Below, piece by piece: positions 22,140 through 62,171 of a DNA stretch of 64,000 bases; within the stretch, counting starts at the first letter, position 1, and each line of letters opens with the position of its first letter. Origin of the DNA: Anabaena lutea FACHB-196 (GTDB taxonomy: Bacteria; Cyanobacteriota; Cyanobacteriia; Cyanobacteriales; Nostocaceae); NCBI RefSeq assembly GCF_014698305.1, contig NZ_JACJST010000001.1:310001-374000 (forward strand), written 5' to 3'. The notes below the pieces were generated by a model. That model was not told the DNA's origin and ran no database searches. It saw only the letters and a program-made list of their open reading frames with translations. A program made the translations under genes and the position numbers.

Positions 22140-22140
22140 G

Positions 22141-22213
22141 GGTGATAGGTGATAGGTGATTGGTAATGGGTGATTGGTAATTAATAATATTTTTTGACAA
22201 CTGACAACTGACA
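22141..22213. repeat. Degenerate 7-bp repeats in the divergent promoter region
   Basis: GGTGATA and GGTGATT units, followed by two and a half ACTGACA-type units, fill the 77 bases between the divergent MlaF-type and carotenoid-isomerase-like genes, so promoter elements must lie within repeat DNA. Confidence 0.6.
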
Positions 22214-22216
22214 AAT

Positions 22217-25484: not shown

Positions 25485-25736
25485 ATCGGTATAAATTTGC
25501 TGGAATGTCAGAAGGAATCTAATTTTAGTATTCCCCATCCAGAAGCAAAAATATCTAATATTTGTTAAATTCGGCTACCTTCATTATTTTTCTGGCAACA
25601 CCTAAACTGTATTAGAATATAAATGTGATTTTCGGAAATGAAAGATGGTCAAATCATGATTTACATCTTTTTTCATCCTGAAACAGAATCTATTTTTCAA
25701 TTTATTGAATGTTACACTCTCTACTGCAAATAAAAA

Positions 25737-26741: not shown

Positions 26742-26868
26742 TATTCAGTTTCATTGAATATTTATGATGAGGATGAGGATGGACGCAGAGATTATTTAAT
26801 CAGCAATTACACGCAATGAAAATCAAAAATTAATCCCGGATAATTACACGGTCAATCTGATGTAACTC

Positions 26869-27462: not shown

Positions 27463-27657
27463 GAATTGATACTCCATAAATACATCTCAATCTAATAGAG
27501 GCATACTCTTTTTATATCAGTTATTTTTGGGTTAGCTCCAAAAATTATAGCTGCGTTTAACAACTTTAAAAAAGTACCATCTCTATCTACTTAAATAAAG
27601 TCGATATGAGATGGTAATAACAATAATTAGTAAAAATATTAGGAACGATAGTCTACC

Positions 27658-27981
27658 TTAATATCGACGTTCTCGACGAAATTCGTTTTGGTAGCGAAAT
27701 TCTCTTTCTCTACGAGTTTCTTGTCTGTGATTATTGTCTCGTCTGTAATTATCGTCTCTTCTGTAATTATCGTCTCTTCTGTAATTATCGTCTCGTCTGT
27801 GATTATTGTCTCGTCTGTAATTATCGTCTCTTCTGTGATTATTGTCTCGTCTATGACGAATTTCTTGCCGCTGATTTCTATAATTGTTTGGATTAGCAGC
27901 TAATGCTGGAGATATGCCTACACTACCTAGTGTTATTAAACCAAGTGTACCAAGTAAGATAAGAGATTTGTGTAAATTCAT
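27658..27981 (-). CDS. Small exported Arg/Asp/Asn repeat protein
   Basis: This 107-residue protein has a classical signal peptide (cleavage probably after SPALA). The mature part consists almost entirely of six-residue repeats RRDDNY and RRDNNH (18-bp DNA units, 27723-27850). It is very basic and acidic at once, and likely disordered. The His/Asp content might bind metal or nucleic acid; that is speculation. I recognise no family. The plus-strand frame over the repeats (VIIVSS repeats) is an artefact. The gene sits next to the LTxxQ lipoprotein gene, in the same orientation. Confidence 0.6.
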   Translation of the reverse strand: MNLHKSLILLGTLGLITLGSVGISPALAANPNNYRNQRQEIRHRRDNNHRRDDNYRRDNNHRRDDNYRRDDNYRRDDNYRRDNNHRQETRREREFRYQNEFRRERRY

Positions 27982-28206
27982 AGTGAGTTTTCTTCAGAAT
28001 GAAATTAGTTTTAGGGTTGTTTTATTCCAACCTACTTAAAGCATAAAATTAGAGTTGCATGGCGATATAGGTAAAAAGTCACTAATCTGTTCATGACTTT
28101 AGTCATGTTTATCTAATATTCTTAACTAGTAATTATATTGCAAAAACTCCTGTATTCTGCTAGAAATAGAATAGCCTATCAATTGTTTTTTTATATTTTA
28201 AAATAA

Positions 28207-46551: not shown

Positions 46552-46701
46552 TGTACAACGAGAATAAAGTTGGAAACTCAGATTGTGTAAAAGCCCTGAG
46601 TTTTCGTTCTATATGAGGCATGGTCTGAAAAATAAAGTTGGAAACTGGAGGATAACTGATATGGCATCCGCTTTTTATGCCGAATAATAAAGTTGGAAAC
46701 T
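46552..46701. repeat. Putative transposon end with three TnsB-binding repeats
   Basis: TGTACAACGAG is followed by three exact copies of AATAAAGTTGGAAACT at 46563-46578, 46631-46646 and 46686-46701. All are in one orientation, spaced 68 and 55 bases. Tn7 ends start with TGT, and its left end has three separated TnsB sites within about 150 bases; this segment matches that plan exactly. Identification as TnsB sites is inference. Confidence 0.7.
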
Positions 46702-46831
46702 GCCAAAATCCTCGCCAAGAGCCGATATTCTGAAATAGTCTTTGGTCATCCTGGATCTATCTCCCGTAACTTCAGTCATCCTTACTATTGATCTCCCTTT
46801 ATCCTGATTGGTAATGGTCTGTAGATTTACC

Positions 46832-48805
46832 CTAAGTTTCAATATTGCTTACTAACAAGTTTAGATTTTTCAGAGCAGTAGCTATTGCTTCCTTGACTAC
46901 AGGTAACTGTCGTACCTCTGGACGTAACCCAGCACGACGTACTAACTCCCACTCTTGAGGACACAGGTGTTCTTGACGAAATCTATCTGCTGTCCACTTC
47001 ACTCTTCTTACTGCAAACTCTTCCCTACTTTCAGCCACTTCCCCTAAAACCTTTGCCGTTAGTGGCAATCTCTGAAGGTGTCTTTTCACCCAAGCACTAA
47101 TAGGATGTTCTAGAGAGTTAGCGATCGCAGTTCGACTAATCCAAACCGGACGACCAGAATCTTCCTTGAGGTTCTCAGCAGCAACTTTCACTGCTGCCAT
47201 TGCTTGAATGTCTCTAATCTCCCAATCCACATCTGGAGTACCATTCTTTTTTTGTAGTGGTGGTAGATGTTCATTTAGCCAATCCCTATCATATTTGTAC
47301 AACTGACCATAAACTGCTGGTGCTTTACTTCTTAATTGCGTTCTTCCCAAATCAGGATTTACTGCCATTAAATCTAGCCACTTTTGACGGCATGATTCAA
47401 TCACATCTGTTGCCACTTCATAAGTTGTTGCACGAAGCTTGAGAGATGGACACAAATTTTTTGCTCTTGCCGTAGTATTAGGTCGGGGGAAAGTAAGCTT
47501 CAATTTATCTGCTTGACGAAGCACCGTCTTCACACTTACTCCTAAACGCTGTCCTATCTCTTTGAGAGTAAGTGATGGTCTTATCTCTTTGAGAGTAAGT
47601 GATGGGTCATGCCAAAGAAGTCTTAATGATTCTTCCCAAACAGAACCATAAACCTTGATTCTTGAATATTGAATACGATCCTCTAAAGATTGTTCTGGTG
47701 CATTTCGACAGTAAACAAAACCACAGATACAAGAAAATGTGCCTGTAAGTTTGTGATTTTCCTGGTTATACGTGATTTGACATTCGTGAATTTTGGGCTG
47801 TTGAAAATATTGGCAAACAGGATTTAGACATGGCCAAGGTGCATTACCAAAAGGTTTCTTGGCTTCTTGTAACTCAAAAAATTCTTGGGCAGAATATCCT
47901 AAAAACTGAATCAACAAAAGATGGCGTAGGGGATGGTGAACTCTTCTCGGAAAGCGAACCAACTGAGCGAGCCAATGATCACGAATCTGCTCATCAAGTG
48001 GACATTGAAGCAGTTCTAACACCTCAGCAGGGTAGTGATTTTGGAATAGTCTCAATAACTCTTGAACCCGAATCCTACCTGCATGAGTTACTAATTCTGG
48101 ATTATTCTTAACCAAAGACAGGTATTTTTGATATAAATCTTCTAACCCTGGTACAAAACGGCAATCATTGAGAAGCCACTCTATATCTTTGGCAATGTTG
48201 AGCAAAATTTTGTGAACAGGATCTAAAGGTTCTATTGGACGAGGAACTGCTTTTTGGATTGCCTGTTCTGCTGCCAGGAATTCGTATGCAAGTCTGCGAT
48301 TATGAGTTAATACATCACTGTTCTCTAGAAACACTGAATGAGTGGGACAAACTTCAACACCTGGAACTTGATGGAGACGATGCCAATAAGATTCGCCAAA
48401 ACGCTTTTTATCATCCTCTACACACAAAGGACAGAAGCGTAGGTGAGAAGGCATTTCCACGTATCCCGCAACAATTCCCAAACGAGCGTGAATTTTTGCC
48501 CCATTATCACCACTCATATCATCACGAATTAGTTGATCTCGCTCTGGTGGTAGGAAAGGACTGTAAAAAGGTAAGAGAGTATGATTGTTAATGAAATAGT
48601 CAACGGTATAACCTGATTGTGGGGGTAAGGTATCAACAAGCCTTTTCAACCTGCTAGGGAAATCAAAAATAGCGATCGCATTTTTTGTTTGGAATAAGTC
48701 TTCCACAGTTGCTTTTTGACTGGGGTATCTTACCCGATCTTGAAATCGAGCGCAGATACTGTAGAACAACTCATCAGGATATGCTTCAGGGAAGTAACCA
48801 AGCAT
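46832..48805 (-). CDS. tniQ: TniQ/TnsD-family target-selection protein (second copy)
   Basis: This 657-residue protein has an N-terminal TniQ domain (YFPEAYPDELFYSICARF) with a zinc-finger set FCPLCVEDD...YWHRLHQVPGVEVCPTH (residues ~137-172). A further Cys cluster is CLNPVCQYF and FSCICGFVYC near 330-370, and C-terminal helix-turn-helix modules complete it. It is longer than Tn7 TnsD (508 residues) and far longer than the short TniQ used by CRISPR-associated transposons, so a DNA-sequence-reading role is likely: binding an attachment site and recruiting TnsC. It is the last gene of the tns operon, 32 bases after its paralogue, and only 131 bases from the terminal repeats. A 9-residue tandem duplication sits near residue 400. 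Confidence 0.88.
   Translation of the reverse strand: MLGYFPEAYPDELFYSICARFQDRVRYPSQKATVEDLFQTKNAIAIFDFPSRLKRLVDTLPPQSGYTVDYFINNHTLLPFYSPFLPPERDQLIRDDMSGDNGAKIHARLGIVAGYVEMPSHLRFCPLCVEDDKKRFGESYWHRLHQVPGVEVCPTHSVFLENSDVLTHNRRLAYEFLAAEQAIQKAVPRPIEPLDPVHKILLNIAKDIEWLLNDCRFVPGLEDLYQKYLSLVKNNPELVTHAGRIRVQELLRLFQNHYPAEVLELLQCPLDEQIRDHWLAQLVRFPRRVHHPLRHLLLIQFLGYSAQEFFELQEAKKPFGNAPWPCLNPVCQYFQQPKIHECQITYNQENHKLTGTFSCICGFVYCRNAPEQSLEDRIQYSRIKVYGSVWEESLRLLWHDPSLTLKEIRPSLTLKEIGQRLGVSVKTVLRQADKLKLTFPRPNTTARAKNLCPSLKLRATTYEVATDVIESCRQKWLDLMAVNPDLGRTQLRSKAPAVYGQLYKYDRDWLNEHLPPLQKKNGTPDVDWEIRDIQAMAAVKVAAENLKEDSGRPVWISRTAIANSLEHPISAWVKRHLQRLPLTAKVLGEVAESREEFAVRRVKWTADRFRQEHLCPQEWELVRRAGLRPEVRQLPVVKEAIATALKNLNLLVSNIET
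47555..47605 (-). repeat. 27-bp in-frame tandem duplication inside the second tniQ
   Basis: TATCTCTTTGAGAGTAAGTG is repeated with a 27-base period (47555 and 47582), giving SLTLKEIRP followed by SLTLKEIGQ. It lies at the start of a helix-turn-helix segment (LTLKEIGQRLGVSVKTV). The near-identity of the two copies indicates a recent event. Confidence 0.9.
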
Positions 48806-48837
48806 TATATTCTTTTACTCTAAAATTTTAAGAATTA

Positions 48838-50766
48838 TTAAAGGCTGGAAGGGAAAGAATCCAATGCTGCTTCAATGGCTTCTTGTACTTTTGGTAAGTC
48901 AGTTAGTTCGTTGCCGTGACGTATACCTGCCAAATGTTCTAATTGCGATCTAGTTGGTAATTTATTTTCCTGAAGAAAGTATTCTGCTGCCCACCAAACG
49001 CGGCGAACAGTATACGCTTCTCTTGTCTCTACTACTTCAGATAAAGCCTTCGCTGTCAGTGGCAATTTATCAATTTTGTTATGGATTGCTGAAAGTTGAT
49101 TGATGTCTTTACCAATCATCCTTGCTGTTATTCTCACAGGACGCGATGGACTATTTTTCATCCGTTCAGCTGATTGTCTTACAGCCTCTGCAAGTTGAAT
49201 ATCTTTGATTTCCCAATTGACATAAATGGAACCATTGTTTCTTCTACGAGGTGGTAGATGAGCTTCTAACCACTCAGAATCATTTTTCCTTAACCATGAG
49301 TAAACTCGCCAACATTGATTGCGTAAAGATACGCGATCTGAATTAGGATTGTTATTTAATAGAGTAAGCCACTCTTTTCGGTAAAGCTCTGATTTGTTTG
49401 GTTCATTGAACTTTTCTTCTTGGCTATCTGAAAACTGCTTCGAGCCTATGTTTGTCTCTCTTTTAGCACCTAATCGTGGAAATGAAAGCCCCAATCTAAC
49501 AGCATGATGCTTAATAGTTTCTGTACTTACTTTCAATTTGTTAGCAATTGCAGTAACAGAAAGTGATGTATCTGCCCAAAGATTTGCTAAAGTATTTTCC
49601 CATAAATACCCGTAAGACTTAACTGTACTGACTCTAAATTTATCTTTAACTGATTTCTGAAAATCTTTCCTAGTATAAGCAAAGCCACATTCGCAGCTAA
49701 ATAAACCTATAGGAGTCCCATCGTTATTGGAGTAATAAACCTGGCATGATTGAATGTATGGTTTTTGAAAGTGAGTACAAACAGGATTTACACAAAGCCA
49801 AGGTCCTTCGCCAAAGGGTTGAAAATCACTAGGCAATTGGAAGAAACTTTCTACTGTGTACCCAAAAAATTGTATTAATAATAAATGCCGCAATGGATGT
49901 TGGCTACCCTTTGGTAGTCTAACTAGCCTAGATAACCAATTTCCATGACTCTGCTCATCAACTTCACATTGAAGCATTTTTAATATTTCTGGGGAATAAT
50001 AGCTTTTAAATGCGTCAAGTAGTTGAGCAATATGAACTTTACCACCATAAGTAGCTAATTCTTGTTCAGCCAGTAAATAAAGATAACGATTCTTAATTTT
50101 ATGAATATCTGAAACTACAGCATTCTGTTTTAGAAGCCAATCCGCATCTTGAGATATTTTAAGAAGTTGTTGATGTTGAATGTTTAATAAATCTAGGGAT
50201 TGTAATGTTTGTGTATGTATAATAGTTTGTTGAGCATCAATAAAAGTTTGATGATTATTTTGTCCACTAATACAAACACTACTTTTTTCCAAAAAAACCA
50301 TATGAGTAGGGCATACTTGTACACCTGGTATTTGGTGAAGTCGATGCCAGTAGCACTCACCAAAATTTTTTCTATCTTCTAAGACGCATATTGGACAAAA
50401 TTGTAAATATTTTGGTGGACGAATCGTACTTGCTGTAAGACCTAGACGGTAGTGAAGTCCATTTCCATCACCTTTCATTTGCTCTCGAAACTGTTGAATA
50501 TTTGCATGGGATATGAAAGGTCTATAAAAAGGAAATAATGTTAAACCATCTATAATCTTATCAACAGTGTAATTATTTCCTGTTGGAAGGGAATCAACTA
50601 GATAGCCAATGTGAGTAGGTAAATCAATTATTGCTCTTGCGTGTACACTTGCAAACAGGTCTTGCATTAAGTTCTTTTGACTAGAATATTGTAAATAATT
50701 TTGATAACGTCCACAGACGCTATATAACAATTCATCTGGATAAGGATCTGGGAAAAAACCAATCAT
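48838..50766 (-). CDS. tniQ: TniQ/TnsD-family target-selection protein (first copy)
   Basis: This 642-residue paralogue of the next gene has the same plan: N-terminal TniQ domain (FFPDPYPDELLYSVCGRY), zinc set FCPICVLED...YWHRLHQIPGVQVCPTH, second Cys cluster CVNPVCTHF and FSCECGFAYT, helix-turn-helix LSVTAIANKLKVSTETI, and a C-terminal WEIKDIQLAEAVRQSAERM segment. The start codon overlaps the tnsC stop by 4 bases. The two copies share motifs throughout but differ strongly in the C-terminal half, where target reading is expected, so they probably direct insertion to different sites (inference). Confidence 0.9.
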   Translation of the reverse strand: MIGFFPDPYPDELLYSVCGRYQNYLQYSSQKNLMQDLFASVHARAIIDLPTHIGYLVDSLPTGNNYTVDKIIDGLTLFPFYRPFISHANIQQFREQMKGDGNGLHYRLGLTASTIRPPKYLQFCPICVLEDRKNFGECYWHRLHQIPGVQVCPTHMVFLEKSSVCISGQNNHQTFIDAQQTIIHTQTLQSLDLLNIQHQQLLKISQDADWLLKQNAVVSDIHKIKNRYLYLLAEQELATYGGKVHIAQLLDAFKSYYSPEILKMLQCEVDEQSHGNWLSRLVRLPKGSQHPLRHLLLIQFFGYTVESFFQLPSDFQPFGEGPWLCVNPVCTHFQKPYIQSCQVYYSNNDGTPIGLFSCECGFAYTRKDFQKSVKDKFRVSTVKSYGYLWENTLANLWADTSLSVTAIANKLKVSTETIKHHAVRLGLSFPRLGAKRETNIGSKQFSDSQEEKFNEPNKSELYRKEWLTLLNNNPNSDRVSLRNQCWRVYSWLRKNDSEWLEAHLPPRRRNNGSIYVNWEIKDIQLAEAVRQSAERMKNSPSRPVRITARMIGKDINQLSAIHNKIDKLPLTAKALSEVVETREAYTVRRVWWAAEYFLQENKLPTRSQLEHLAGIRHGNELTDLPKVQEAIEAALDSFPSSL

Positions 50767-52361
50767 CCTACCATTTCCTCCTTAAGATATTCAGTAGCAG
50801 GTCGGATATAACCTTCTAGCTTAAGAGCTTCATAAGCAGTAATTCTTTTTTTTGCACCAAGAGCTACAACTTTGACTAAGCCATCAATTTCTGAAGTTGT
50901 GTTACGAGATTTCCTCTGCTTCTTATTCGTTTCTGTGTGGGTAGGAGTAGCAACATCTGTTATGTTTGCCGATTCTGGCATGGAAGAGTCAACAGCTAGA
51001 TTTTGAGCATTAATGCTGATATCTTCTTGATCGTCTACCAGATTTTTTTGAATTACGGGTGAAGAACGAATTTTACCGACAACTTTTGTACTTTTGCTGG
51101 CCTCTTGAACAAAAGAAGCGAGGTCAATTGGGTATACATCCTCAACACTTTGGAGGAATTTAATATCACCTGTTTTCAAGGCTGACAGAATAGGTTGTGC
51201 CAATCGAAGACTATCCTTAGCAACAGATCGAATAATACTTTCGGTGATGCTCTCTTTCTCTGTAGCGATCGCCCTAATTTGAGCTAACATATAAACTTTA
51301 ACCGCAAAATCAGTAATTCCCTGAGTGACTTCATAGAGGGCATGGCATAGCTCTGGTTTAAGCGGGCATACCTTTTGGAGATACTGATATCGCCAAAGTG
51401 ATTCAACAAATAGCTCCCAAACATCATCCTCTGCCATCCTATCCCAAACCAAATCGCCCTGACCACTACCGCGACGGATTTGACGAAACTCACCACTCAA
51501 AACAGACATCGCTTTATAAGTTCCTACGAGAACAACAGGAATGCCAATTGTGTTGACAAGTTGAACAAAGAAATTGAGCATTTTGCGAGAGCCACCGCTT
51601 TTAGCTTCGCTCAGGTGTTGAATTTCATCAATTACCAATACCCCAATGCAGTGTAGTGAAGCTACACGAGCAATGTATGGTATCAATTGATCGACTGTAA
51701 AACGTTTTCCACCATAGTTTTTCGAGTAGTTAGTTCCCAAAAGATCATCAACTGCTTGGAAAAAATTTAAACACAAACCTTTAATCGAGCCATCAAAAGG
51801 ACAATCAAGCTTTAGCCAAACAATTTGCATCAATGTGAAATTTTGTCCTTGATAGTGGCTATGAATAATAATTTGGGGATAGAGCGATAAAATGGCTTCT
51901 ACAGCAGTTGTTTTGCCGACACCGCTAATACCAATAATTGTGAAACCTGTGGCTGTTGAACGCAGATGAGTTGGAGTAATTTCTGTAGAACTCAGAGCAT
52001 CAATTCGTTTTTGAAAATCTCGCTTAAACTCTGCTGTTAATGGATTACGTGCCTGATAGCCTGAGCGAATCATGCGCGAAAAACGTTGTTCCAAATCTAA
52101 ATGAATTGGTAGTGGTTCAACAAATTGAATTGCATTTTGGACTAAATGTAAACGTAAATGATTGGGCAATAATCGCTCTTCTTTGTTATAACTTGGGTAA
52201 CGTGCTAGAAGCCCCATCGCTTCTTCTTCCGCAAGAATTGCTGGTAGCGCCTCAATTAAAGGATTATTCCGGTAACTAGCAATTAACGGGTCGCGGTATG
52301 AGGCTTTGACAACTGACCCTTTACCAACCAAGACAGATGGTGTCATATCACTGTTAGTCAT
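50763..52361 (-). CDS. tnsC: TnsC-type AAA+ transposition regulator
   Basis: This 532-residue ATPase has Walker A GISGVGKTT (residues 144-152) and Walker B VLVIDEIQHL (Asp246-Glu247), with a long N-terminal extension and a C-terminal tail typical of Tn7 TnsC (555 residues) rather than the short TniB/TnsC of type V-K elements. TnsC oligomerises on DNA, senses the target complex made by TniQ/TnsD, and activates the TnsA-TnsB transposase. The gene overlaps tnsB by 8 bases and tniQ by 4. The C-terminal ~130 residues are basic and low-complexity (KKQRKSRNTT), suited to contacts with TnsA-TnsB. Confidence 0.93.
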   Translation of the reverse strand: MTNSDMTPSVLVGKGSVVKASYRDPLIASYRNNPLIEALPAILAEEEAMGLLARYPSYNKEERLLPNHLRLHLVQNAIQFVEPLPIHLDLEQRFSRMIRSGYQARNPLTAEFKRDFQKRIDALSSTEITPTHLRSTATGFTIIGISGVGKTTAVEAILSLYPQIIIHSHYQGQNFTLMQIVWLKLDCPFDGSIKGLCLNFFQAVDDLLGTNYSKNYGGKRFTVDQLIPYIARVASLHCIGVLVIDEIQHLSEAKSGGSRKMLNFFVQLVNTIGIPVVLVGTYKAMSVLSGEFRQIRRGSGQGDLVWDRMAEDDVWELFVESLWRYQYLQKVCPLKPELCHALYEVTQGITDFAVKVYMLAQIRAIATEKESITESIIRSVAKDSLRLAQPILSALKTGDIKFLQSVEDVYPIDLASFVQEASKSTKVVGKIRSSPVIQKNLVDDQEDISINAQNLAVDSSMPESANITDVATPTHTETNKKQRKSRNTTSEIDGLVKVVALGAKKRITAYEALKLEGYIRPATEYLKEEMVG

Positions 52362-54546
52362 TATTCCAGTTTTTCTCCCTTAATCTACGTAGCTTATCAA
52401 TGGGCTTTGGTGGAGCTACATACCCACCATCATTTTCTTCAAGTTCGGTAGCTAGAGGCATGGGAATTACTTCCCCTAGTTGAGCCGGAGTTTCTTCTGT
52501 TCCTAATTTCCAGGCTTGAGTTTCACGTTCATGTTCACGTTCTAACTTGCGATTTTCCCGAATACCTTGAACACGCGATCGGTTACTTTGACCAGTAAGT
52601 GCTTTTTCAGTCTTTTCTTTAGCTTTTGTAACAATATTATCTACCTGAGCATTAAATGTTGCTTTTCGCTGTTGTTGACGAGTAGAAGCTGCTTCTTGTG
52701 ATTGTTTTTGTAGCTCGAAGTAATCAATAACTTCAAACCAATCCCGTTCTCGAAATGTTTTCTGAGTTTCGCTTAATTGGCAAGGTTCTAATATTCTCGT
52801 GTCATCACGACGCAAATAGATAATGTCAAGTCTGCGTGGATCATAAGCTATGGGAATCTTCCATCTGCCATTTACTCTAGCCTTAACAAACCACTGTTCT
52901 CGTATAGCAAGTTCACAAGTGTAATTTAAGCCCTGATAGTAAATACCTTGAGGAGTAACTGAAGCTTCCGCAGAAGGTAACAAATTCAAACGAACAATTT
53001 CAGGTGCAATTTGGCGTAAGTGACCAACTCGATTTTGAATTCCCCAATTCCAAAGTTCAATTGGGTATGGTTCAACGTAGTCCTGAATCATAAATTCATT
53101 CATTCGATACCAATTCATCCGATGGAGTTTGTTATGGTCAAGAATGGATAAAATAATAAGTTTTCTAAATTCTTGGAGATCAAGAATTGCATCAAGCCTA
53201 TAGTCCTTATCACCTCTCTCTCTTACTCGATTGACTGCCCCTGGCATCCAACGAATCATCTTGTCGTTACTTAAACGAAAATTTCTTTCTACAATACCTT
53301 TCCAATCTGCTCGGTATGGAGGTGTATTCGATACTCGGATATTTAAAGCATTTACTAAATTATCGGCATTGTAACCTTCTAGTTCGCCTCTGTCTGCCAG
53401 GATAGCTTCAGGAAGGTGATGGCTAGGCCAATCAGCTTCATCAATTTCAATGCCATATTCAGCACAAAAAGCTACTTTGTTGGTGGCTACATTTTCCAGA
53501 GCCAACATTGCACCCAACCAACTCGGACCTTCTAAACTGACACTAAAGCCTGTGATCAGTCTGCTAAAAGTATCAATAACAAAGTAAATCACAGGGCGAC
53601 CAATAATACGGTTTCGGTCTAAGGAACTGACTAGATAAATATCGCCGATAGTAGCGTCTATTTGGTAAATTGAACCTGGACCAAATGCCATTTGCGTTGA
53701 ATCTCCAAGCACTGCCCTATGACGTAAATTGAATCTACGCTTGCCTTCACGGGAGATTTTTTGCTGACTAATATCTCGTTCCTTTTCATACCAATATCGA
53801 AACTGAGCAAATGTGGGTAGTTCACTGGCAGGAGGTAGTACAGGAACTAATACCCCATTTTGCATTTCATAACCTTGATGAAAAAACTTTTCCAAGGTTT
53901 TCTGAAAAGCATCTTTTAAAGTTCTTCCTTGTTGTGTTTCGTAAAATAAGGCGATACCACGGGAAAAGTATTTCCGAATATCGTCATTAACGTTGATACC
54001 AAGGGGTATATCAGTTACTTTTGAGAGTTTACTGGGACGACCACGCTTACAGTTAGAAACCTTTCTTTCCTTACCTTTTGCACCACACCTATCAAACAGA
54101 GGAAGAAGGGCATTTTTGGTTTGTCCACCTTGCCAATAACGCCGTAGATAATTATAAATCGTCTTTTTTATACAACCTGTGCGTTCGACTGTAGCTTCTA
54201 TAAGTTGACCGCGATCGCGGGCATTAAAAATTAGCTCAATGTCACCCTCAACCAGTGGGGCAATCACTTCCCATGCTCGGTCTCTACGTTGGCAGTGTTT
54301 ATCTGAAATTGTATTTTCAGGACGAAGTAACCCCATATAAGGGTCAATCTTGAGGATACGAATTTCTTGAGATGCGATCGCTGTTTCCAATTCCTTGGAT
54401 TTTTGCCATTTTGGGAGAGCTTTTGAGTTACTAATCTCAATTGTTACGACATCCGTACCAGATGAATCAATCCAAAGTACACGCTCAATATAAATTTCAG
54501 TATCGGTGTTTTCCCACTCCAGCAGCATATTTACATAAAGGTTCAT
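52354..54546 (-). CDS. tnsB: TnsB-type DDE transposase
   Basis: This 730-residue transposase has an rve-type catalytic core with the DDE triad Asp297 (YQIDAT), Asp385 (LADRGE) and Glu420 (IVERNF). The spacing of 88 and 35 residues is that of Tn7 TnsB. N-terminal helix-turn-helix segments (residues ~75-150, IEATVERTGCIKKTIYNYLR) would bind the terminal repeats, and a beta-barrel follows the core. It cuts the 3' transposon ends and joins them to target DNA. It overlaps tnsA by 4 bases. TnsA and TnsB are separate proteins here, unlike fused TnsAB of some CRISPR-associated elements. Confidence 0.95.
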   Translation of the reverse strand: MNLYVNMLLEWENTDTEIYIERVLWIDSSGTDVVTIEISNSKALPKWQKSKELETAIASQEIRILKIDPYMGLLRPENTISDKHCQRRDRAWEVIAPLVEGDIELIFNARDRGQLIEATVERTGCIKKTIYNYLRRYWQGGQTKNALLPLFDRCGAKGKERKVSNCKRGRPSKLSKVTDIPLGINVNDDIRKYFSRGIALFYETQQGRTLKDAFQKTLEKFFHQGYEMQNGVLVPVLPPASELPTFAQFRYWYEKERDISQQKISREGKRRFNLRHRAVLGDSTQMAFGPGSIYQIDATIGDIYLVSSLDRNRIIGRPVIYFVIDTFSRLITGFSVSLEGPSWLGAMLALENVATNKVAFCAEYGIEIDEADWPSHHLPEAILADRGELEGYNADNLVNALNIRVSNTPPYRADWKGIVERNFRLSNDKMIRWMPGAVNRVRERGDKDYRLDAILDLQEFRKLIILSILDHNKLHRMNWYRMNEFMIQDYVEPYPIELWNWGIQNRVGHLRQIAPEIVRLNLLPSAEASVTPQGIYYQGLNYTCELAIREQWFVKARVNGRWKIPIAYDPRRLDIIYLRRDDTRILEPCQLSETQKTFRERDWFEVIDYFELQKQSQEAASTRQQQRKATFNAQVDNIVTKAKEKTEKALTGQSNRSRVQGIRENRKLEREHERETQAWKLGTEETPAQLGEVIPMPLATELEENDGGYVAPPKPIDKLRRLREKNWNND

Positions 54547-55388
54547 CCCACACCCCCTAATTTTTGGTGTAGCTGTACCAATGGGTTTGCTAGGAGAACT
54601 AATGGCTCACTAGGGTTAATTGATTTATTCATGTCAACCAACCACCATCGGTTAGCAATCAAATGGCGAGCAACAGAGAGTCCTATACCTGGTTTAAATC
54701 CAAGTTGGTCGTCACAATCAGCAGCTATACTTGCTAGAGAGTCATGCTCTTCGACTACTCTCAAAGTAAGTGCTGTTGTAATTCGACGAATCTCAGATTC
54801 CGATATGGAGGAACAGTCTTCAATACTGAAGAAAGGGTGTACCCAATCAATATTTCTAGCCAATCTTTCAGGAATTTCATGTTCTGTGACAATTCCCCAA
54901 TTTATATCTCTAGACTGCCAGTATTGACGCTCAATTTCTAATTTTTGTAGTGTACGCTCTGATTGCAAATCTTTAGCTAATTTAAGCGTACGTACCTGTT
55001 CAATAACTCCTATTTTTTGACGCACAGTAATAAGAAAATCCGTAGTCATCACCATTGGATCTTGAGTTTTGGGGTCTTTAGGATGGGGTATACCGTTCTT
55101 TTCAGCGATCGCTAATGTTTCTTCTAGAGGTAGTAGGGGATATTGCTCCCGGATGTCACAGATAATGGGCGACCATTCTAGTATGTAGAAATAATTAAGT
55201 TCAAGGTTGCTGAGTAGATGGTGGACTCGATTGGTTTTCCAACCCTTTATCCTGCTGGCAAGACCTTGGGATGCTACATCTTGAACCAGTAGCCAGGGTT
55301 TGTACTCATAACCTCTGCCTTGCCCACGACCTTCGCTGATATGTCTATCAATGACAGCCTCAGTTTTTGTTCTCTTTCTTTTAGCCAT
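54543..55388 (-). CDS. tnsA: TnsA-type 5'-end endonuclease
   Basis: This 281-residue protein follows the Tn7 TnsA pattern. The restriction-like catalytic domain has Glu63 (SNLELNY), Asp117 (MTTDFLI) and Lys136 (RTLK), and the signature stretches IREQYPLLPL and ERTLQKLEIERQYW. The usual Gln before the Lys is replaced by Thr, as TLK instead of QVK. A winged-helix C-terminal domain follows from ~170. TnsA nicks the 5' transposon ends so that the element leaves by cut-and-paste. It is the first tns gene, with the next upstream gene 109 bases away on the same strand. Confidence 0.93.
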   Translation of the reverse strand: MAKRKRTKTEAVIDRHISEGRGQGRGYEYKPWLLVQDVASQGLASRIKGWKTNRVHHLLSNLELNYFYILEWSPIICDIREQYPLLPLEETLAIAEKNGIPHPKDPKTQDPMVMTTDFLITVRQKIGVIEQVRTLKLAKDLQSERTLQKLEIERQYWQSRDINWGIVTEHEIPERLARNIDWVHPFFSIEDCSSISESEIRRITTALTLRVVEEHDSLASIAADCDDQLGFKPGIGLSVARHLIANRWWLVDMNKSINPSEPLVLLANPLVQLHQKLGGVG

Positions 55389-55497: not shown

Positions 55498-56208
55498 TCA
55501 AAGAGAAGCTAAAAAATCTTTAATTTTTGCGAGTTGCTTTTCATCCAGAACTTGTTTAAATTTTTCTGCCACTATATCCTTTTGTTCCGGTAAGACAGAC
55601 ATAAGTAATGCTACTAGTTCGATGAAATCCTCCTCTTGAAAGATTTTTTTAAGCTTTGTCACTGCCCGACGAGGATGTACAAAAACTGTTACTTGGTTAG
55701 TTCTTAATCCGGCTTGAACCATAGCAGCATTAACAGTTAACTCACCAGCCAGAACTTTAGCGTGTAATTCTGGATTTTTCTTACGAAGCTGGCGAAGTCC
55801 AGCTTGTTTGCTAGTACCAGTCGGTCTTTCTATCTTACCAAAATTGTGTATATTATCAACAATTATTTTTTGACCAACAAGTCTTTGACTTTTTTCAGGT
55901 GATCCTGCTGGTCTCTGTACGGCGCGGTCTAGGAGATCCAGAAGTAATGGGTTATGGGAACACAGTTGCCAAAGCGTTTCAAAATTTGTTCCTAGTCCTG
56001 CTGGTGGAGGAGTTTTTATGAAATCAACAAAAGAATTCATTGTCACAACTTCTCCAGTATCTGGGAGAATTTGTTCTTGCCATAACTCTTCTTCAAGAAT
56101 CGGCTGAAGTAGTTCTGGAATACTATTAAGTTCTGTAACTCCTTCAACAAGTGCTGAACGAAGTAATGTGATGATTTGATTTTTGTCTAAATCCGTTCTT
56201 TTGGACAT
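55498..56208 (-). CDS. Hypothetical protein upstream of tnsA (ParB-HTH-like segment)
   Basis: The 236-residue soluble protein is not recognised as a whole. Residues ~125-165 (LRQLRKKNPELHAKVLAGEL then TVNAAMVQAGLR) resemble a helix-turn-helix stretch seen in ParB-related and plasmid or phage proteins of cyanobacteria. The rest is helical, with an acidic N-terminus and a C-terminal coiled region (EKFKQVLDEKQLAKIKDF). It is transcribed towards tnsA and could be the first gene of the tns operon, or a regulator shared with the divergent defence operon. Possible roles are a transposition accessory factor or cargo; nothing decides between them. Confidence 0.6.
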   Translation of the reverse strand: MSKRTDLDKNQIITLLRSALVEGVTELNSIPELLQPILEEELWQEQILPDTGEVVTMNSFVDFIKTPPPAGLGTNFETLWQLCSHNPLLLDLLDRAVQRPAGSPEKSQRLVGQKIIVDNIHNFGKIERPTGTSKQAGLRQLRKKNPELHAKVLAGELTVNAAMVQAGLRTNQVTVFVHPRRAVTKLKKIFQEEDFIELVALLMSVLPEQKDIVAEKFKQVLDEKQLAKIKDFLASL

Positions 56209-56377: not shown

Positions 56378-56758
56378 ATGAGCAAGTTTGGTGAAACAAT
56401 CAGGCAGCTTCGAGAGGCTCAAAATCTGGGACTTCGGGAAACGGCTACTATGGTAGGTATCTCGCCTGCTTACTTAAGTCGCATTGAGCGGGGTAAGGAG
56501 CATCCGCCAAAGCCGGAGGTTATAAAAGCATTAGCAAAAGGTTTAGCGGCTGATCCTGATGTACTATTTCGGCTTTGTCCTTCCACAGACCCAGATGTAG
56601 TGACTTTGCTGAAGGAAAGACCAAAGGTACTAGAATTAGTTCGTTTGGTTATGGTTCAGGAACTTTCTGACGAGCAGCTTGGTAAAGTTGAGCATTTTAT
56701 TAAGCGAGATATATTAGGAGAAACTTCCTCGGATACAATACTCACTGTATCTGAGTAA
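56378..56758 (+). CDS. mad1: HTH (XRE-type) protein of the MADS defence system
   Basis: This 126-residue protein has a Cro/C1-type helix-turn-helix in residues ~7-60 (IRQLREAQNLGLRETATMVG, SPAYLSRIERGK) and a C-terminal region with LLKERPKVLELVRL. The start is preceded by a very close GGAGGG. It begins a co-directional operon with the DNA methylase 61 bases downstream. In the methylation-associated defence system the first gene is an HTH protein thought to control expression, and the gene order here fits. A palindrome just upstream may be its own operator. Confidence 0.82.
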   Translation: MSKFGETIRQLREAQNLGLRETATMVGISPAYLSRIERGKEHPPKPEVIKALAKGLAADPDVLFRLCPSTDPDVVTLLKERPKVLELVRLVMVQELSDEQLGKVEHFIKRDILGETSSDTILTVSE

Positions 56759-56819: not shown

Positions 56820-58850
56820 ATGAAAGCAAAACAGTTGCCGATTCCTGATTTGGAAGATAATACAGAAGATTCCACTATTTCTGATGGTTATATCCTTGAC
56901 TTTATTAGTGGTGAGAAAAGTCTCAAGGATACGCCAAAAGAACAGGTGCGTCAACGGATTGCACGGGCGTTGTTTCATGAGTATGGAATTTCGGTGGAAG
57001 ATATGGCGGCTGATTTTCCGGTTTCTATTAACGGGAAGCGGAAAAAGCTGGATATTGCTATTTTTCACCACGACCAGGAGCATACAGTTCAAAATTTAAG
57101 TCGGGTGGTGGTTTGTCGCCCAGAACCGAAGGTGGGCAGAAATGCGGTTAGGATTCGAGATTACGATCAAGCAGCCAAGGATTTAGAAGAATTAGAAACC
57201 ATCATGGAGCATATTAACTCCTGTAAGTATGGTTTGTGGACGAATGGTTTAGAGTTCTTTTATTTAGAGAAGCAAAGAACAAGGTTTGAAGATAGGTTTG
57301 AGCCGATAGGAGATTGGCCACCTGCTGATGAGTCTTTGGACACACAGGAAGTAGTGTCTAATGCGCGTACCCGTAAGGCTGATCCAAAGATGCTACGAGT
57401 AGCTTTCCGGCGATGTCATAATTTCATTCACGGAAATGAGGGAATGCCCAAGGATGCAGCATTCTGGCAGTTCCTATACCTGATTTTCTGTAAAATGCAC
57501 GATGAGCAGAAATCACCTCGCGGTCAACGGCGATTTTGGGCAGGGCCGAAGGAGCAGTTCGATACTGAGGGGCGTAAAGAAATCCGCAAGCGGCTTATAC
57601 CTCTGTTTGAAGAGGTGAAAAAGAATTACAGCAATCTTTTCCGGGGAAATGAGGAAATTACTCTTTCTGACCGCGCCCTTGCTTTTATGGTTTCTGAATT
57701 GGCAAAGTATGACTTTACACGCACTGATGTGGATGCCAAGGGTGGAGCTTATCAAGAAATAGTTGGTGCGAATTTACGGGGCGATCGCGGCCAATACTTC
57801 ACGCCACGGGGTATTATCAAGCTGGCAGTGGAGATGCTTGACCCCAAGGAAAATGAGCGAATTTTAGACCCAGCCTGTGGAACTGGGGGATTTTTGGTGG
57901 CAGTGCTGGGATATATGGTCAAGAAGTTTCGGGAAGAAGCGAATGTGCCAGTAGGATTAGAGACTACAGAGGAATTTCTATCTGTCAATCAACGCCTGCG
58001 CCAGTTTGCCGAGAAACAAGTGTTTGGTGCGGATTTTGACCCGTTTCTAATTAAAGCTTGCCAGATGAATATGGTAATGGCGGGAGATGGCAGGGGTCAT
58101 CTTTATCACATCAATTCTGTGGATTTTCCCAACGGGCATTTAGACGGGTTAGAACCAGCTAAAAAAGAAATTCCCCTAGAATCAATTGATGTGTTGTTGA
58201 CTAATCCGCCTTTTGGTTCTGATATTCCGATTACGGATCAAAATACACTCAAGCAGTTTGAATTAGCTTACGCTTGGGAACGGACGGAGGATGGTAGTTT
58301 TCGCAGAACTGGCAGACTTCAGGGGAGTGTTGCGCCGGAAGTATTGTTTATTGAGCGTTGTCTGAACTGGCTAAAACCGGGGGGAAGGATGGGGATTGTT
58401 TTACCAGATGGCATTTTGGGCAATCCTGGAGCCGAATATATTCGGTGGTGGATTCTGCGTCATTCTTGGGTCTTAGCTAGTGTGGATATTCCAGTGGAAG
58501 CATTTATTGTAGAAGCGAATGTAAATATTCTCACAAGTTTGCTGTTTCTGAAGAAGAAAACCAAAGAGGAAATTAGGGCTGAGGATTTAGGAGGTAAGAC
58601 GGACTATCCTGTATTTATGGCAGTAGCAGAGAAGGTAGGATTTGACCGTCGAGGAAATACGCTTTATAAACGGACTCCTGATGGTGAAGAAATTGTGGAG
58701 CTAAAAGAGGAAATAGAAAGATATCGGAAGGGAGAACGTATTATTGAACGTTCTTTAAAAAGAAAAAGAAAGATACTCGATGATGACTTGCCTGTAATTG
58801 CCGAAAAATATCGAGAGTTCCGTCAACAATACCCAACTCCAGGTATATGA
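56820..58850 (+). CDS. mad2: N6-adenine DNA methylase of the MADS defence system (HsdM-like)
   Basis: This 676-residue protein has a C-terminal type I-like methylase module: SAM motif DPACGTGGFLVAVL near 348 and catalytic NPPF (LLTNPPFGSD) near 461. The N-terminal ~150 residues resemble the HSDR_N nuclease-like domain of type I enzymes (KKLDIAIF), but where an E-x-K would stand it reads VVVCRPEPK, so nuclease activity is doubtful. Together with the specificity subunit it would mark host DNA so that self is spared. The stop overlaps the next start by 4 bases (ATGA). It is about 130-180 residues longer than a normal HsdM because of the N-terminal domain. Confidence 0.88.
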   Translation: MKAKQLPIPDLEDNTEDSTISDGYILDFISGEKSLKDTPKEQVRQRIARALFHEYGISVEDMAADFPVSINGKRKKLDIAIFHHDQEHTVQNLSRVVVCRPEPKVGRNAVRIRDYDQAAKDLEELETIMEHINSCKYGLWTNGLEFFYLEKQRTRFEDRFEPIGDWPPADESLDTQEVVSNARTRKADPKMLRVAFRRCHNFIHGNEGMPKDAAFWQFLYLIFCKMHDEQKSPRGQRRFWAGPKEQFDTEGRKEIRKRLIPLFEEVKKNYSNLFRGNEEITLSDRALAFMVSELAKYDFTRTDVDAKGGAYQEIVGANLRGDRGQYFTPRGIIKLAVEMLDPKENERILDPACGTGGFLVAVLGYMVKKFREEANVPVGLETTEEFLSVNQRLRQFAEKQVFGADFDPFLIKACQMNMVMAGDGRGHLYHINSVDFPNGHLDGLEPAKKEIPLESIDVLLTNPPFGSDIPITDQNTLKQFELAYAWERTEDGSFRRTGRLQGSVAPEVLFIERCLNWLKPGGRMGIVLPDGILGNPGAEYIRWWILRHSWVLASVDIPVEAFIVEANVNILTSLLFLKKKTKEEIRAEDLGGKTDYPVFMAVAEKVGFDRRGNTLYKRTPDGEEIVELKEEIERYRKGERIIERSLKRKRKILDDDLPVIAEKYREFRQQYPTPGI

Positions 58851-60115
58851 TTTCTCGAATAGAAGCATTTAAATATCGCTGCTTTGACCGACTTGATATT
58901 AAACTCGGTCAATATCATGTTTTGGCTGGTGCAAATGGCACGGGTAAAAGTACGCTGCTTGATATTCCTTTATTGTTGGGCGAAATTCTCTCACAGGGAT
59001 TAATCCCAGCTTTTTTAGAATCTCCTTCTATTGGTGGCAGTCCGAGAGCGCAAAATTTACAAGAGTTGCTGCATTATGGCAGAGGGAATTATTTTGGTTT
59101 TGCCATAGAAGCTGATTTACCTGAAGAAATTATTATTAAATTGCTCGCAGATGCACCACCCACGGTTCTAAAAGATAAAAATAGACATCCTCGAAGTATT
59201 AGATATGAAATTCGGTTTCAAATTTTTAATAATATTGAGCTTCATGTAACTGATGAATTTTTATATATTGTTCCGCAGAAGGTTTCTGAACCCAAAGAAG
59301 GCTGGGGAATAGGAGGTAAACGTCCTCGTTACTGGCAAACAATTATTGAGCGAGAATCTGGTTTAGCAACAATTCTGAAACAAGAAGACCGAAGTAACAC
59401 TAAGATTAGTTTGCGACTGGAACCCCAAGAATTAGCTTTAGCAAATTTACCCCGTGATCTCGATAAATTTTCTGCGTCTATTTGGTTTAGAAATCTTTTA
59501 GAAAAAGGCGTAATGCGTTATGAACCAAGTTGGTCAGTGCTGCGGAGAGCTTGTCCGCCGGGTCAGCCTAAAACCTTGCGTTCAGATGGTGCTAATCTAC
59601 CTTGGTTAGTGATGAATTTGCAGCAGGAACAGCCAGAGTTCTTTGAGTCTTGGGTAGAACACGTCAAAATGGCTTTGCCTAATATTGTGGCAATAGAAGC
59701 CATTCAACGTGAAGAAGATTATCACGCCTACCTCAAATTATCGTATTGGGGTGATCATGTTGTTACTTCTTCTGGATTATCTTACGGAACCCTGCATATT
59801 TTGGCACTGACTATTTTGCCCTATCTACCCCAACCACATCGTCTCATTTTCTTGGAAGAACCAGAAAATGGTATTCACCCTAGAGCAATTGAGATAATAT
59901 TGCAGTCTTTGAGTTCGGTGTATGATTCTCAAGTTTGGGTATCTACCCATTCTCCTGTCGTATTGGCATATACTGAATTAGAATCTGTGATTGCGATGCG
60001 AAGTAGTAGAGAAAATGGTGCAGAAGCTATTCCCGGAAATAAACATCCACGTTTACAAGATTGGCAGGGAAGTATCGACCTTGGTTCCCTGTTTGCAGCA
60101 GGGGTACTGGGATGA
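58847..60115 (+). CDS. mad3: AAA/SMC-like ATPase of the MADS defence system
   Basis: This 422-residue protein is of the AAA_15/OLD-like ATPase type. Walker A GANGTGKST is at residues ~28-36 after the typical start ISRIEAFKYRCFDRLDIKLG. SYGTLHILAL (signature-like), Walker B LIFLEEPENGIHP and STHSPVVL mark the C-terminal half. It lacks an attached TOPRIM domain; the next gene supplies a TOPRIM-like protein, the same split found in PARIS-type systems. It overlaps both neighbours by 4 bases, so translation is coupled. Confidence 0.87.
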   Translation: MISRIEAFKYRCFDRLDIKLGQYHVLAGANGTGKSTLLDIPLLLGEILSQGLIPAFLESPSIGGSPRAQNLQELLHYGRGNYFGFAIEADLPEEIIIKLLADAPPTVLKDKNRHPRSIRYEIRFQIFNNIELHVTDEFLYIVPQKVSEPKEGWGIGGKRPRYWQTIIERESGLATILKQEDRSNTKISLRLEPQELALANLPRDLDKFSASIWFRNLLEKGVMRYEPSWSVLRRACPPGQPKTLRSDGANLPWLVMNLQQEQPEFFESWVEHVKMALPNIVAIEAIQREEDYHAYLKLSYWGDHVVTSSGLSYGTLHILALTILPYLPQPHRLIFLEEPENGIHPRAIEIILQSLSSVYDSQVWVSTHSPVVLAYTELESVIAMRSSRENGAEAIPGNKHPRLQDWQGSIDLGSLFAAGVLG

Positions 60116-60753
60116 GAGATTGTATTTTCCTGCTTGCTGATAAAAATATGGAGGCGGCTTTTACTGGTTTTTTTACCAGAGCGCAATTCCATAGAAGTTT
60201 GGGAATTCGGCAGTTTGAATTCGACCCACAACAAGACATTATTGTCGAACCTGGTAGCGACCCAGGTGTTTATACCCGCGCTCATGAATTAATTCGCCCT
60301 TATCAAAAAACTCATCGCTATGCTGTTGTAGTGTTAGATAATGCTTGGGATGGCTCACCAGGAGTAGAAAGAATTTCTGATAATATCATGGCGAATTTGA
60401 TTGAGACGGGTTGGGATGAAAAGAATTGTGTGGTAATTGTAATTGACCCAGAATTAGAGATTTGGATACTACAGGATAATCCCAATGTAGAAGAGGAATT
60501 TGGGTTTAGACAAAATATCTCTTTAAGAAACTGGTTAGAACAAAAAGGTTTATGGAATGCTGCTGCGTTGAAACCTGCTGATCCGAAGAAAGCTGTTGAA
60601 GATGCTTTGAGATTCTCAAAAAAACCTCGTTCATCAGCAATATATAAAAATATAACTAGCAAAGTTTCTGTTAGAGGATGTACAGATACAGCATTTCAAA
60701 TGTTGTGTAGTAAAATGCAGCAATGGTTTCCATTGGAGGAGGGTCAAGGATGA
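60112..60753 (+). CDS. mad4: TOPRIM-like protein of the MADS defence system
   Basis: The 213-residue protein begins MRDCIFLLADKNMEAAF and shows VVVLDNAWDG and VIDPELEIWIL, an arrangement like the DUF4276/TOPRIM-related partners of OLD-type ATPases, though the first acidic motif is not canonical. It may be the effector or sensor working with the ATPase before it. ATG 60112 overlaps the mad3 stop as ATGA; an in-frame ATG at 60061 inside mad3 is rejected. In published MADS operons the fourth protein has no assigned function, so the TOPRIM link is my inference. Confidence 0.75.
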   Translation: MRDCIFLLADKNMEAAFTGFFTRAQFHRSLGIRQFEFDPQQDIIVEPGSDPGVYTRAHELIRPYQKTHRYAVVVLDNAWDGSPGVERISDNIMANLIETGWDEKNCVVIVIDPELEIWILQDNPNVEEEFGFRQNISLRNWLEQKGLWNAAALKPADPKKAVEDALRFSKKPRSSAIYKNITSKVSVRGCTDTAFQMLCSKMQQWFPLEEGQG

Positions 60754-62171
60754 GAGTTACAAAGCTTGACTTTCCTGTCATGTCTTCTTGGATGGAAAAT
60801 AACGGGCGGCGTTTGGATTGTACACCGTATCTTTCTGGGGCGTTTGAAGCGAAGGTAATACTTAAAAAGCTGCCACCTGAATCCTTACAACCTTTGCATG
60901 CAGTTACAAAGGGAGGTCTAAACGGAATTTTTCATGCTGGTCGTGAGCGTCGTCAATATGTAGATGATCCAGCTTATGGTGTTCCTTTCCTGGGGAGTAC
61001 AGATATTCTTGCTGCTGATCTTTCTTCTCTATCTCTTTTGTCAAAAAAGCAAGTAGCAGCTAATCCAAATTTTGCTATTCAGGAAGGATGGACTCTCATC
61101 ACCCGTTCTGGAACTATTGGCAGAATGGTCTATGTACGATCAGATATGGCAGGAATGGCTTGTACTGAACACGCTATGAGAGTTGCCCCTGACGTTAATA
61201 AAATTTTGCCAGGTTACTTATATGCTTATCTCAGTAGTAAATTTGGAGTTCCTCTTGTTATCTCAGGAACTTACGGTTCAATTATTCAAAGTATTGAACC
61301 TCAGCATTTAGCTGATTTACCAGTACCGAGATTAGACAAAGATATTGAAGAAAAAGCACATAATTTAGTTAATAAAGCTGCAAGTAATAGAGTTTTAGCA
61401 TCTAAATTACTAGCCGAAGCTAGTGAAGATGTTATTGCTCATTTTAAATTAAAAATTCCCACACCACGATATAAGTATAGTAGTCCTAGCATAACTTCTG
61501 CATCTTCTTTTTCAATGCTAGAACGCATTGATGCTTATTACTACGCTAAGTGGAATGAAGAGGCATACCAAGAATTTAGTAAATTGCCACCAGCACAATT
61601 AGTGACTATTGGTGATATTACAGAAGATTTATACATACCTAATATATTCAAGAGATTTTATGCTGAAGATCCTAAATTTGGTTATGCGTATCTCACGGGT
61701 GCAGATATTTATGTTCTCGCACCTACTTCTAACCGTTATTTATCAAAAAAATTGCCAGACATTGATAAATTAGTTCTCCGCGATGGCATGATTTTGGTTC
61801 AAGATTCTGGTCAAATTGGAGGTTTAATTGGTCGTCCTGTCGCAGTTGGTAGATATTTATCTGGCTTTGCTTGTACAAATAATATGGTGAGAATTGTTCC
61901 TCACTCAAAACTTGACCAAGGATATATTTTTGCAGTGTTAAATACTGAATATGGTATTAGATTGCTTACAAGAGAAGCAACTGGTTCAAGTATTCCTCAT
62001 TTAGATGAAAAGCGTATTAGAAAAATACAAATTCCCTGGACAGATAATGAAACACGCAAATTGTTAGGCAGGAAAGTTTTACAGGCAATAGAACTTCGTG
62101 ACGAGGCGTGTGATTTAGAAAATGAAGCTAGAGCAATAGTAGATAATGCCATACGTGATGGAGGTGCTTGA
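60750..62171 (+). CDS. mad5: HsdS-like specificity subunit of the MADS defence system
   Basis: This 473-residue protein has two target-recognition halves, each with the paired motif around a turn: LITRSGTIGRMVYV in the first and LVQDSGQIGGLIGRP in the second, followed by helical dimerisation regions (EEKAHNLVNKAASNRVLASK, LGRKVLQAIELRDEACDL). It should set the sequence methylated by the adjacent methylase. ATG 60750 overlaps the mad4 stop as ATGA; the frame's earlier ATG at 60723 is less likely. The stop overlaps the next ATG by one base. Confidence 0.88.
   Translation: MRVTKLDFPVMSSWMENNGRRLDCTPYLSGAFEAKVILKKLPPESLQPLHAVTKGGLNGIFHAGRERRQYVDDPAYGVPFLGSTDILAADLSSLSLLSKKQVAANPNFAIQEGWTLITRSGTIGRMVYVRSDMAGMACTEHAMRVAPDVNKILPGYLYAYLSSKFGVPLVISGTYGSIIQSIEPQHLADLPVPRLDKDIEEKAHNLVNKAASNRVLASKLLAEASEDVIAHFKLKIPTPRYKYSSPSITSASSFSMLERIDAYYYAKWNEEAYQEFSKLPPAQLVTIGDITEDLYIPNIFKRFYAEDPKFGYAYLTGADIYVLAPTSNRYLSKKLPDIDKLVLRDGMILVQDSGQIGGLIGRPVAVGRYLSGFACTNNMVRIVPHSKLDQGYIFAVLNTEYGIRLLTREATGSSIPHLDEKRIRKIQIPWTDNETRKLLGRKVLQAIELRDEACDLENEARAIVDNAIRDGGA

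Follow-up and report, generated by a model that had tools for sequence, protein, structure and literature searches.

Tn7-like transposons commonly follow a two-pathway life style, which a 2024 review (PMC11406308), in the passages cited here, calls near universal, and the second pathways described in the cited parts of the literature are chiefly TnsE and CRISPR. The attachment (att) sites given in those passages are glmS, comM, yhiN, parE, tRNA, guaC, yciA, ffs and rsmJ, and for insertions into plasmids where tnsE is lacking, the cited part of Benler et al. (2021; PMC8649781) offers as one possible explanation that plasmid targets are chosen by selectors still unknown. Tandem tniQ/tnsD loci have also been catalogued: the sections cited from Faure et al. 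(2023; PMC10293859) report 1,048 of them, with two tnsD genes among the classes, one protein usually >400 aa and its partner substantially smaller, and in-place duplication favoured, with few exchanges. In this study, we analyzed a Tn7-like element with two full-length TnsD-type selectors, TnsD1 and TnsD2, in a 64,000-nucleotide stretch of Anabaena lutea FACHB-196 (hereafter the window; C1:310001-374000 of the 6.06-Mb genome), the relatives of which are cyanobacterial.

The element resembles Tn7 (TnsABCDE) in its TnsA/B/C/D machinery and catalytic residues, in TGT/ACA ends with multiple TnsB-type sites, in a right end facing the 3' end of a conserved gene and, as we read it, in the two-pathway life style described for Tn7 in the passages of PMC11406308. 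It differs from Tn7 in that its home is ruvC and not glmS, TnsE was not recognised, and the second selector is another full TnsD. With the dual TniQ-TnsD loci of PMC10293859, as far as the cited sections describe them, it shares two tniQ/tnsD genes beside tnsC, arranged as tandem selectors in one operon; unlike those loci, its selectors are both >640 aa, and the TnsD1 type and its site appear in three transposase lineages. Tandem tnsD genes are already published there, which reduces the novelty of layout implied by the preliminary description made from the letters of this DNA.

Type I-B1, I-B2 and I-D CRISPR-associated transposons (CASTs) also have two TniQ-family proteins, one of them, in the cited accounts, a full TnsD for a chromosomal att site, whereas in the window element no cas gene was matched and the C-terminal TnsD domain of the second selector is complete. 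Membership in type I-B2 or I-D was rejected because TnsA and TnsB are separate genes here. CASTs carry Cas effector genes within the element, and the Cas12k gene of this genome lies outside the one studied. Tn5053-type elements share protein-only targeting of mobile DNA (resolution sites), but they have one TniQ and in most of them no further targeting pathway has been seen, according to the passages of the 2024 review.

The tns operon and the ends of the element

The tns genes form a single tight minus-strand operon in the order tnsA-tnsB-tnsC-TnsD2-TnsD1, in which every reading frame is open and adjacent genes share 4-8 bp, with a 32-bp gap ahead of TnsD1 as the sole exception. The features are as follows.

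46552-46705, plus strand: left end, with the TGTACAAC terminus at 46552 and three spaced TnsB-type sites at 46563, 46631 and 46686 (end analysis)
46832-48805, minus strand: TnsD1 (distal, 657 aa), candidate selector of the ruvC 3' end (Pfam TniQ and TnsD; clade membership)
47551-47604, minus strand: in-frame 27-bp tandem duplication in TnsD1, about residues 401-418 (repeat search; a gap in the 10 other alignment rows)
48838-50766, minus strand: TnsD2 (proximal, 642 aa), second full-length selector, putatively for a mobile-element gene (Pfam TniQ and TnsD)
50763-52361, minus strand: TnsC, an AAA+ protein of 532 aa (Pfam AAA_22 and TniB)
52354-54546, minus strand: TnsB (730 aa; Pfam Mu-transpos_C), DDE residues conserved with Tn7 TnsB 7pik
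54543-55388, minus strand: TnsA (281 aa; Pfam TnsA), aligned to Tn7 TnsA 1f1z
73696-73762, in coordinates extended beyond the window: right end, with the terminus at 73762 and three sites 20 bp apart (end analysis)

The preliminary description had already proposed one operon, intact TnsA and TnsB catalytic residues, two full-length selectors with two Cys clusters each and no cas genes in view, and all four points were borne out. TnsA aligned with the solved structure of Tn7 TnsA (1f1z, 2.9e-47) with the acidic and lysine active-site residues kept, and TnsB with that of Tn7 TnsB (7pik, 3.7e-108) with the catalytic residues identical; the Tn7 positions used are those which we take to be catalytic. 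Both selectors matched Pfam TniQ and TnsD (PF15978; 1.1e-112 and 2.2e-98) and keep the two Cys/His clusters that are invariant across 11 aligned TnsDs, a profile of which matches the N-terminal part of Tn7 TnsD in structure 8glu. The nine residues duplicated in TnsD1 are absent from the 10 other TnsDs of this alignment. No cas gene was matched among the main open reading frames (ORFs) of the element, and a search for CRISPR-like repeats revealed no array in it; TnsE gave no match among the scanned ORFs, TnsE being poorly conserved and one 236-aa ORF being without a family. The hallmark set of a Tn7-like element is thus present, namely the TnsB DDE transposase, the TnsC ATPase, a TniQ/TnsD selector and the TnsA endonuclease that marks cut-and-paste transposition. 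We consider it quite likely that the window element is a Tn7-like transposon that moves by cut-and-paste and has two target programmes based on proteins only, and the two full-size selectors probably each choose a different landing gene.

The TGT/ACA ends carry arrays of TnsB-type sites on both sides, recognised by repetition and regarded as putative binding sites; those of the left end are three copies of AATAAAGTTGGAAACT. The whole element measures 27,211 bp (27.2 kb), and the range 46552-55388 is the tns part alone. Its right end falls past the last position of the window, within the 3' end of ruvC, where the element supplies a new stop codon. The end with the crowded sites is the one that faces ruvC, the presumed att gene, an orientation that appears usual in the cited passages of the 2024 review (PMC11406308). 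An empty site is indicated by gene order, as the left-flank genes of the window element adjoin ruvC in the same-genus genomes G391 and G365.

TnsD1 and the ruvC site

Relatives were collected in searches that count the own genome: TnsD1 found 29 of 388 genomes of the order at 1e-30, and TnsB found 27 of 217 genomes of the family at 1e-100 and, at 1e-150, 23 of 388 in the order and 8 of 386 in the phylum. The scan with the TnsD alignment covers the best 80 of 170 confirmed stretches, and a first genome scan with TnsD2 alone as the query confirmed no relative. By their inferred names, G482 is Nostoc sp. NMS7, G461 Nostoc linckia z4, G497 Nostoc sp. FACHB-280, G427 Calothrix sp. PCC 7716 and G425 Calothrix sp. 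NIES-4105. The preliminary description had asked whether all relatives sit at a single type of site, and several types were found instead.

glmS: G021, G184 and G578; the single-TnsD loci L120, L121 and L124; the dual locus L135; and the dual locus L123 (FACHB-63), which starts with the last 27 codons of glmS
ruvC: the own genome, G461, G482/NMS7 and G497
parA start: G521, flanked on either side by TTGAC
Dam-type methylase gene: G425, where complete Calothrix NIES-4105 plasmids carry two copies, with duplications ACAAT and ACAGT
DUF6753 gene: G517
Gene with a WGQPFG C-terminus, called GIY-like: G427b, G516 and L134

The label GIY-like is our assumption, Pfam having given no match for this gene. 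For the dual elements G011, G081 and G062, no insertion site was located.

In the TnsD tree, the own TnsD1, that of G497 and the distal TnsD of NMS7/G482 form one clade (100/100 in both trees; 67-72% identical), and G461 has a TnsD1-like start that is 75.6% identical over 45 aa, the only length present. A Tn7-type right end lies at nearly the same place in all four genomes, its TGT being 9 nt (own), 9 nt (G461), 10 nt (G482/NMS7) and 13 nt (G497) past a conserved CAG codon of ruvC. Fixed insertion beside one gene, a trait of TnsD-type selectors, is therefore found for TnsD1 by comparison among genomes, and TnsD1 is best read as the ruvC selector. A relic in G521 directly 3' of ruvC is also TnsD1-like (75% over 44 aa).

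The pattern of the own-type end occurred at 30 places in 19 of the 208 family genomes, against 4 places for the reversed-pattern control. Counted as one locus per genome in the 18 genomes besides the own (10 more places in those genomes being left out), 10 of 18 ends lay at most 440 bp from ruvC, 3 at most 32 bp from the GIY-like gene and 5 near neither.

The TnsB tree gives a different grouping of the same elements. The own TnsB is sister to that of the glmS-site element of G021 (98/95), the TnsBs of NMS7 and G497 fall with those of G425 and G517, and the TnsB of G461 falls with that of G521, the rows for G461 and G521 being the longer of two TnsB pieces. Set against the single TnsD1 clade, this tree places the TnsD1 type in three transposase lineages, with the ruvC site accompanying it. 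Since the TnsDs of the glmS clade stand near the base of the TnsD tree, with the distal TnsDs of G021 and G184 adjoining them, the glmS type looks ancestral; our reading is that a glmS-homed dual element may have swapped its distal TnsD and hence changed its home. A clade of the own TnsD1 with the distal TnsDs of G021 and G184 was rejected (p-AU 2.3e-54), a test in which the grouping omitted the sisters of TnsD1 and which adds little beyond the tree.

From the known role of TnsD, TnsD1 would bind the 3' coding end of ruvC directly and recruit TnsC; TnsA and TnsB, coupled via TnsC, would next place the element so that its right end points towards ruvC, the chromosomal home, and such an insertion would leave a full RuvC reading frame. 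Both TnsDs might instead act jointly on ruvC, as their adjacency in one operon and the presence of some second TnsD piece in 4 of 4 ruvC-site genomes could suggest. We consider joint action very improbable, because the partner of TnsD1 varies among the ruvC-site elements, that of G461 is the sister of the lone TnsD in a parA-site element, and single-TnsD relatives are common.

The parA site and the second selector

In the lineage of G461 and G521, a second target can be read from position. The proximal TnsD of G461, which sits at ruvC, is interrupted and is sister to the single TnsD of G521 (100/100; 66% identical), and the G521 element ends 5 bp ahead of the start codon of a plasmid-type parA, with TTGAC flanking it on both sides. 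Right ends of the G461/G521 type were found at 8 places in 6 of the 208 genomes (reversed-pattern control, 0), one at ruvC (G461) and seven upstream of parA in five genomes. The pattern was built from four of these places (G461, G521 and two in G427:C2), and the four independent of it (G427:C1, G442, G501 and G506) are all at parA. The end lies within about 10 nt of the start of the aligned parA frame in G442, G501, G506 and G521, at 46 nt in G427:C1, and at 84 and 673 nt for two stacked units in G427:C2. The right ends of G442 and G501 are 90% identical over 253 bp and 87% over 291 bp, respectively, to that of G461 at ruvC; no tns genes were found in the fetched stretches of these two parA-site derivatives. 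Short end-only relics are stacked upstream of parA on plasmid p1 of Calothrix PCC 7716 (L248:11650-12440), the one record among 72,556 plasmid records that matched the 77-bp right end of G521. The parAB flank of G521 matched 74 of the 72,556 records, of which 24 are conjugative, 21 mobilizable and 29 non-mobilizable.

For the G461/G521 lineage, two protein-only programmes, one for ruvC and one for plasmid-type parA, are well supported by these comparisons. The preliminary description had supposed two insertion programmes for the window element itself, one of them replacing the RNA-guided or TnsE route; this holds by comparison for the sister lineage, and for the window element it holds as regards TnsD1 at ruvC, the target of TnsD2 not having been found. 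In the larger TnsD tree, TnsD2 falls together with the G021 and G184 proximal TnsDs (91/87). Acting through the same TnsABC, it would take the place of TnsE or a CRISPR route and direct the element to another gene, which most likely belongs to a plasmid or to mobile DNA of another kind. For the parA type, insertion positions show that a second TnsD leads to another gene; for TnsD2 of the window, we infer a target on a mobile element.

Considering these results, we propose, with a probability of roughly 0.55, that cyanobacterial dual-TnsD elements lead a complete two-pathway life style by proteins alone, combining an interchangeable chromosomal TnsD (ruvC or glmS) with a TnsD for a plasmid gene (parA in the sister lineage), and that TnsD2 of the window is the mobile-element selector. 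Alternatively, TnsD2 could have no plasmid programme and be a redundant duplicate or a remnant: a selector for an earlier or alternative home in the chromosome, such as a diverged glmS type. The ancestral look of the glmS type, the glmS position of the TnsB sister G021 and the interrupted, short or contig-cut proximal TnsDs of the other ruvC-site genomes (G461, G497 and NMS7) are in keeping with this. We regard it as unlikely, since TnsD2 is full-length, open, in the operon and in possession of both metal clusters, and it falls outside the glmS clade, a separate group with support of 100/99. Moreover, the glmS-site duals G021, G184, G578 and L123 each combine a TnsD of the glmS clade, or the nearest to it, with a second type.

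Several observations weigh against two target programmes in the window element. On the chromosomal side, the ruvC-side end and the TnsD1 gene are on different contigs in G497 and NMS7, and for NMS7 a matching 5-mer and the end type are all that links the two contigs. The G461 element is decayed, with its TnsD1-like gene cut by the contig end, and split ORFs occur in TnsB of both G461 and G521 and in TnsC of G521. The nine-residue duplication in TnsD1 of the window may be harmless or may impair that copy. The window element shows no 5-bp target duplication (CTAGT or ACTAG at the left, CAACA at the right), and the empty site was not shown in the fetched stretches of G309 and G390, so that two of four same-genus genomes are positive. 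As 5-bp duplications are present in the relatives G048, G425 and G521, the window copy or its flank looks rearranged; their lack here counts against an undisturbed single insertion, not against membership in the Tn7-like family.

On the plasmid side, status as a plasmid is certain at the parA places only for G427:C2 (AP025019); the parA place of G427:C1 is on a chromosome contig, and G521, G442, G501 and G506 are on contigs of 75-568 kb of unproven plasmid status. The grouping of TnsD2 with the proximal TnsDs of G021 and G184 was not recovered in the smaller tree. Its target was not found in plasmids (searched by protein and with the own, G021 and G184 ends), in viral contigs (end patterns) or in nine genomes (site-motif scan). 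The best near-full-length relative in the plasmid protein search was only 36.9% identical, the own ends matched one plasmid record in a first search (E 2) and 16 in a second (E up to 5; the best, 9e-4, a Salmonella plasmid), and the own-end patterns had no exact match in the viral contigs. Relics of the own type were observed at ruvC alone.

The clearest cyanobacterial plasmid lead is a relic of about 0.3 kb with own-like ends (L283:8785-9065) on the conjugative plasmid pA of Chroococcidiopsis sp. CCNUC1. It adjoins the start of a tyrosine-recombinase gene and is too diverged for assignment. The TnsB genes of G461 and G521 (L104 and L105) are split at the same place, about residue 472/477; either a break common to both or a split protein that still works could lie behind this.

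If the two-pathway proposal is true, pairing a chromosomal TnsD with one for the parA start would be a simple way to target plasmids with proteins only, and would tell in part what selects plasmid targets for elements that lack TnsE. Elements of this kind may make their home in chromosomes and move on plasmids with no need of a CRISPR guide. The TnsD1 type in three transposase cores is a natural experiment suggesting that selectors are portable modules, useful for site-specific insertion tools. As far as the cited passages go, both ruvC and parA would add to the known att sites: neither is among those in the passages of the 2024 review (PMC11406308), and the single mention of ruvC in the cited sections of PMC10293859 refers to the Cas12k nuclease domain. 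Hsieh and Peters (2023), on cyanobacterial Tn7-like elements, could contain them.

Cargo, the neighbouring type V-K element and other relatives

The main genes of the element are the tns genes, a defence system, one helix-turn-helix (HTH) protein and one orphan. The cargo matches mad2, mad3, mad4, mad5, mad6, mad7 and mad8, in this order (PADLOC), of MADS, the methylation-associated defence system; mad1 had no match in the PADLOC scan of the cargo.

55498-56208, minus strand: orphan ORF of 236 aa, with no match in Pfam, NCBIfam or PADLOC
56378-56758, plus strand: XRE-type HTH protein, which precedes the cargo (library scans)
56820-58850, plus strand: mad2, a DNA methyltransferase (PADLOC mad2, 3.7e-98; a type II methyltransferase model scores higher, 1.6e-273)
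58847-60115, plus strand: mad3, an AAA ATPase (PADLOC)
60061-60753, plus strand: mad4 (PADLOC)
60723-62171, plus strand: mad5, a specificity subunit (PADLOC)
62168-64000, continuing to 66310 beyond the window, plus strand: mad6, a kinase (PADLOC)
Outside the window, after mad6 and before the right end: mad7, then mad8 (PADLOC), the cargo reaching 73488 in window-extended coordinates

A Cas12k or Cascade locus beyond the 64 kb had been named earlier as the thing to look for, and a Cas12k locus is indeed present, but in a separate element with its own short TniQ. This type V-K CAST, Tn7-like and cyanobacterial as well, is on the same contig (G000:C1:427723-440218; window-extended 117723-130218), its tnsB starting 44 kb past the right end of the window element. 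It encodes a TnsB-like protein of 583 aa, a TnsC-like protein of 278 aa, a TniQ of 174 aa and Cas12k (NF038191, 4.5e-286). With its own transposase genes and short TniQ, it has no bearing on the window element, and the third TniQ of the genome, considered as completing the window element, was rejected since it belongs to this CAST. The presence of the CAST on the contig could still be taken to mean that one TnsD of the window is an adaptor to a partner acting in trans, RNA-guided or of another kind, such as this Cas12k system. We hold this to be extremely improbable, given that the CAST has its own TnsB-like, TnsC-like and 174-aa TniQ genes, that the main genes of the window element are tns, MADS, HTH and orphan with no CRISPR-like array found, and that both TnsDs have full C-terminal TnsD domains, unlike the core-only TniQ of CASTs in the cited sections of Faure et al. 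(PMC10293859). A tRNA-Thr gene lies about 1.4 kb beyond Cas12k.

Some further arrangements were seen among the relatives. In G184, an element of another type lies in tandem with the glmS-site dual-TnsD element, the right end of the former directly against the left end of the latter (L043:13130-13186). The chromosome of Calothrix sp. PCC 7716 (G427) carries two like 7-kb Tn7-like copies 442 kb apart with crossed 5-bp flanks, TTAGT/TCAAG (L089-L092), as expected for the integration of a replicon as a cointegrate or by recombination. In G048, a compact element whose one TniQ has 306 aa is present in two like copies (L049 and L050) with clean 5-bp duplications, CCCCC and CCTGT, one copy being beside a recombinase-like ORF and the other about 230 bp from glmS. 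Within the window, positions 12000-28000 have mostly raised GC and shifting GC and AT skew.

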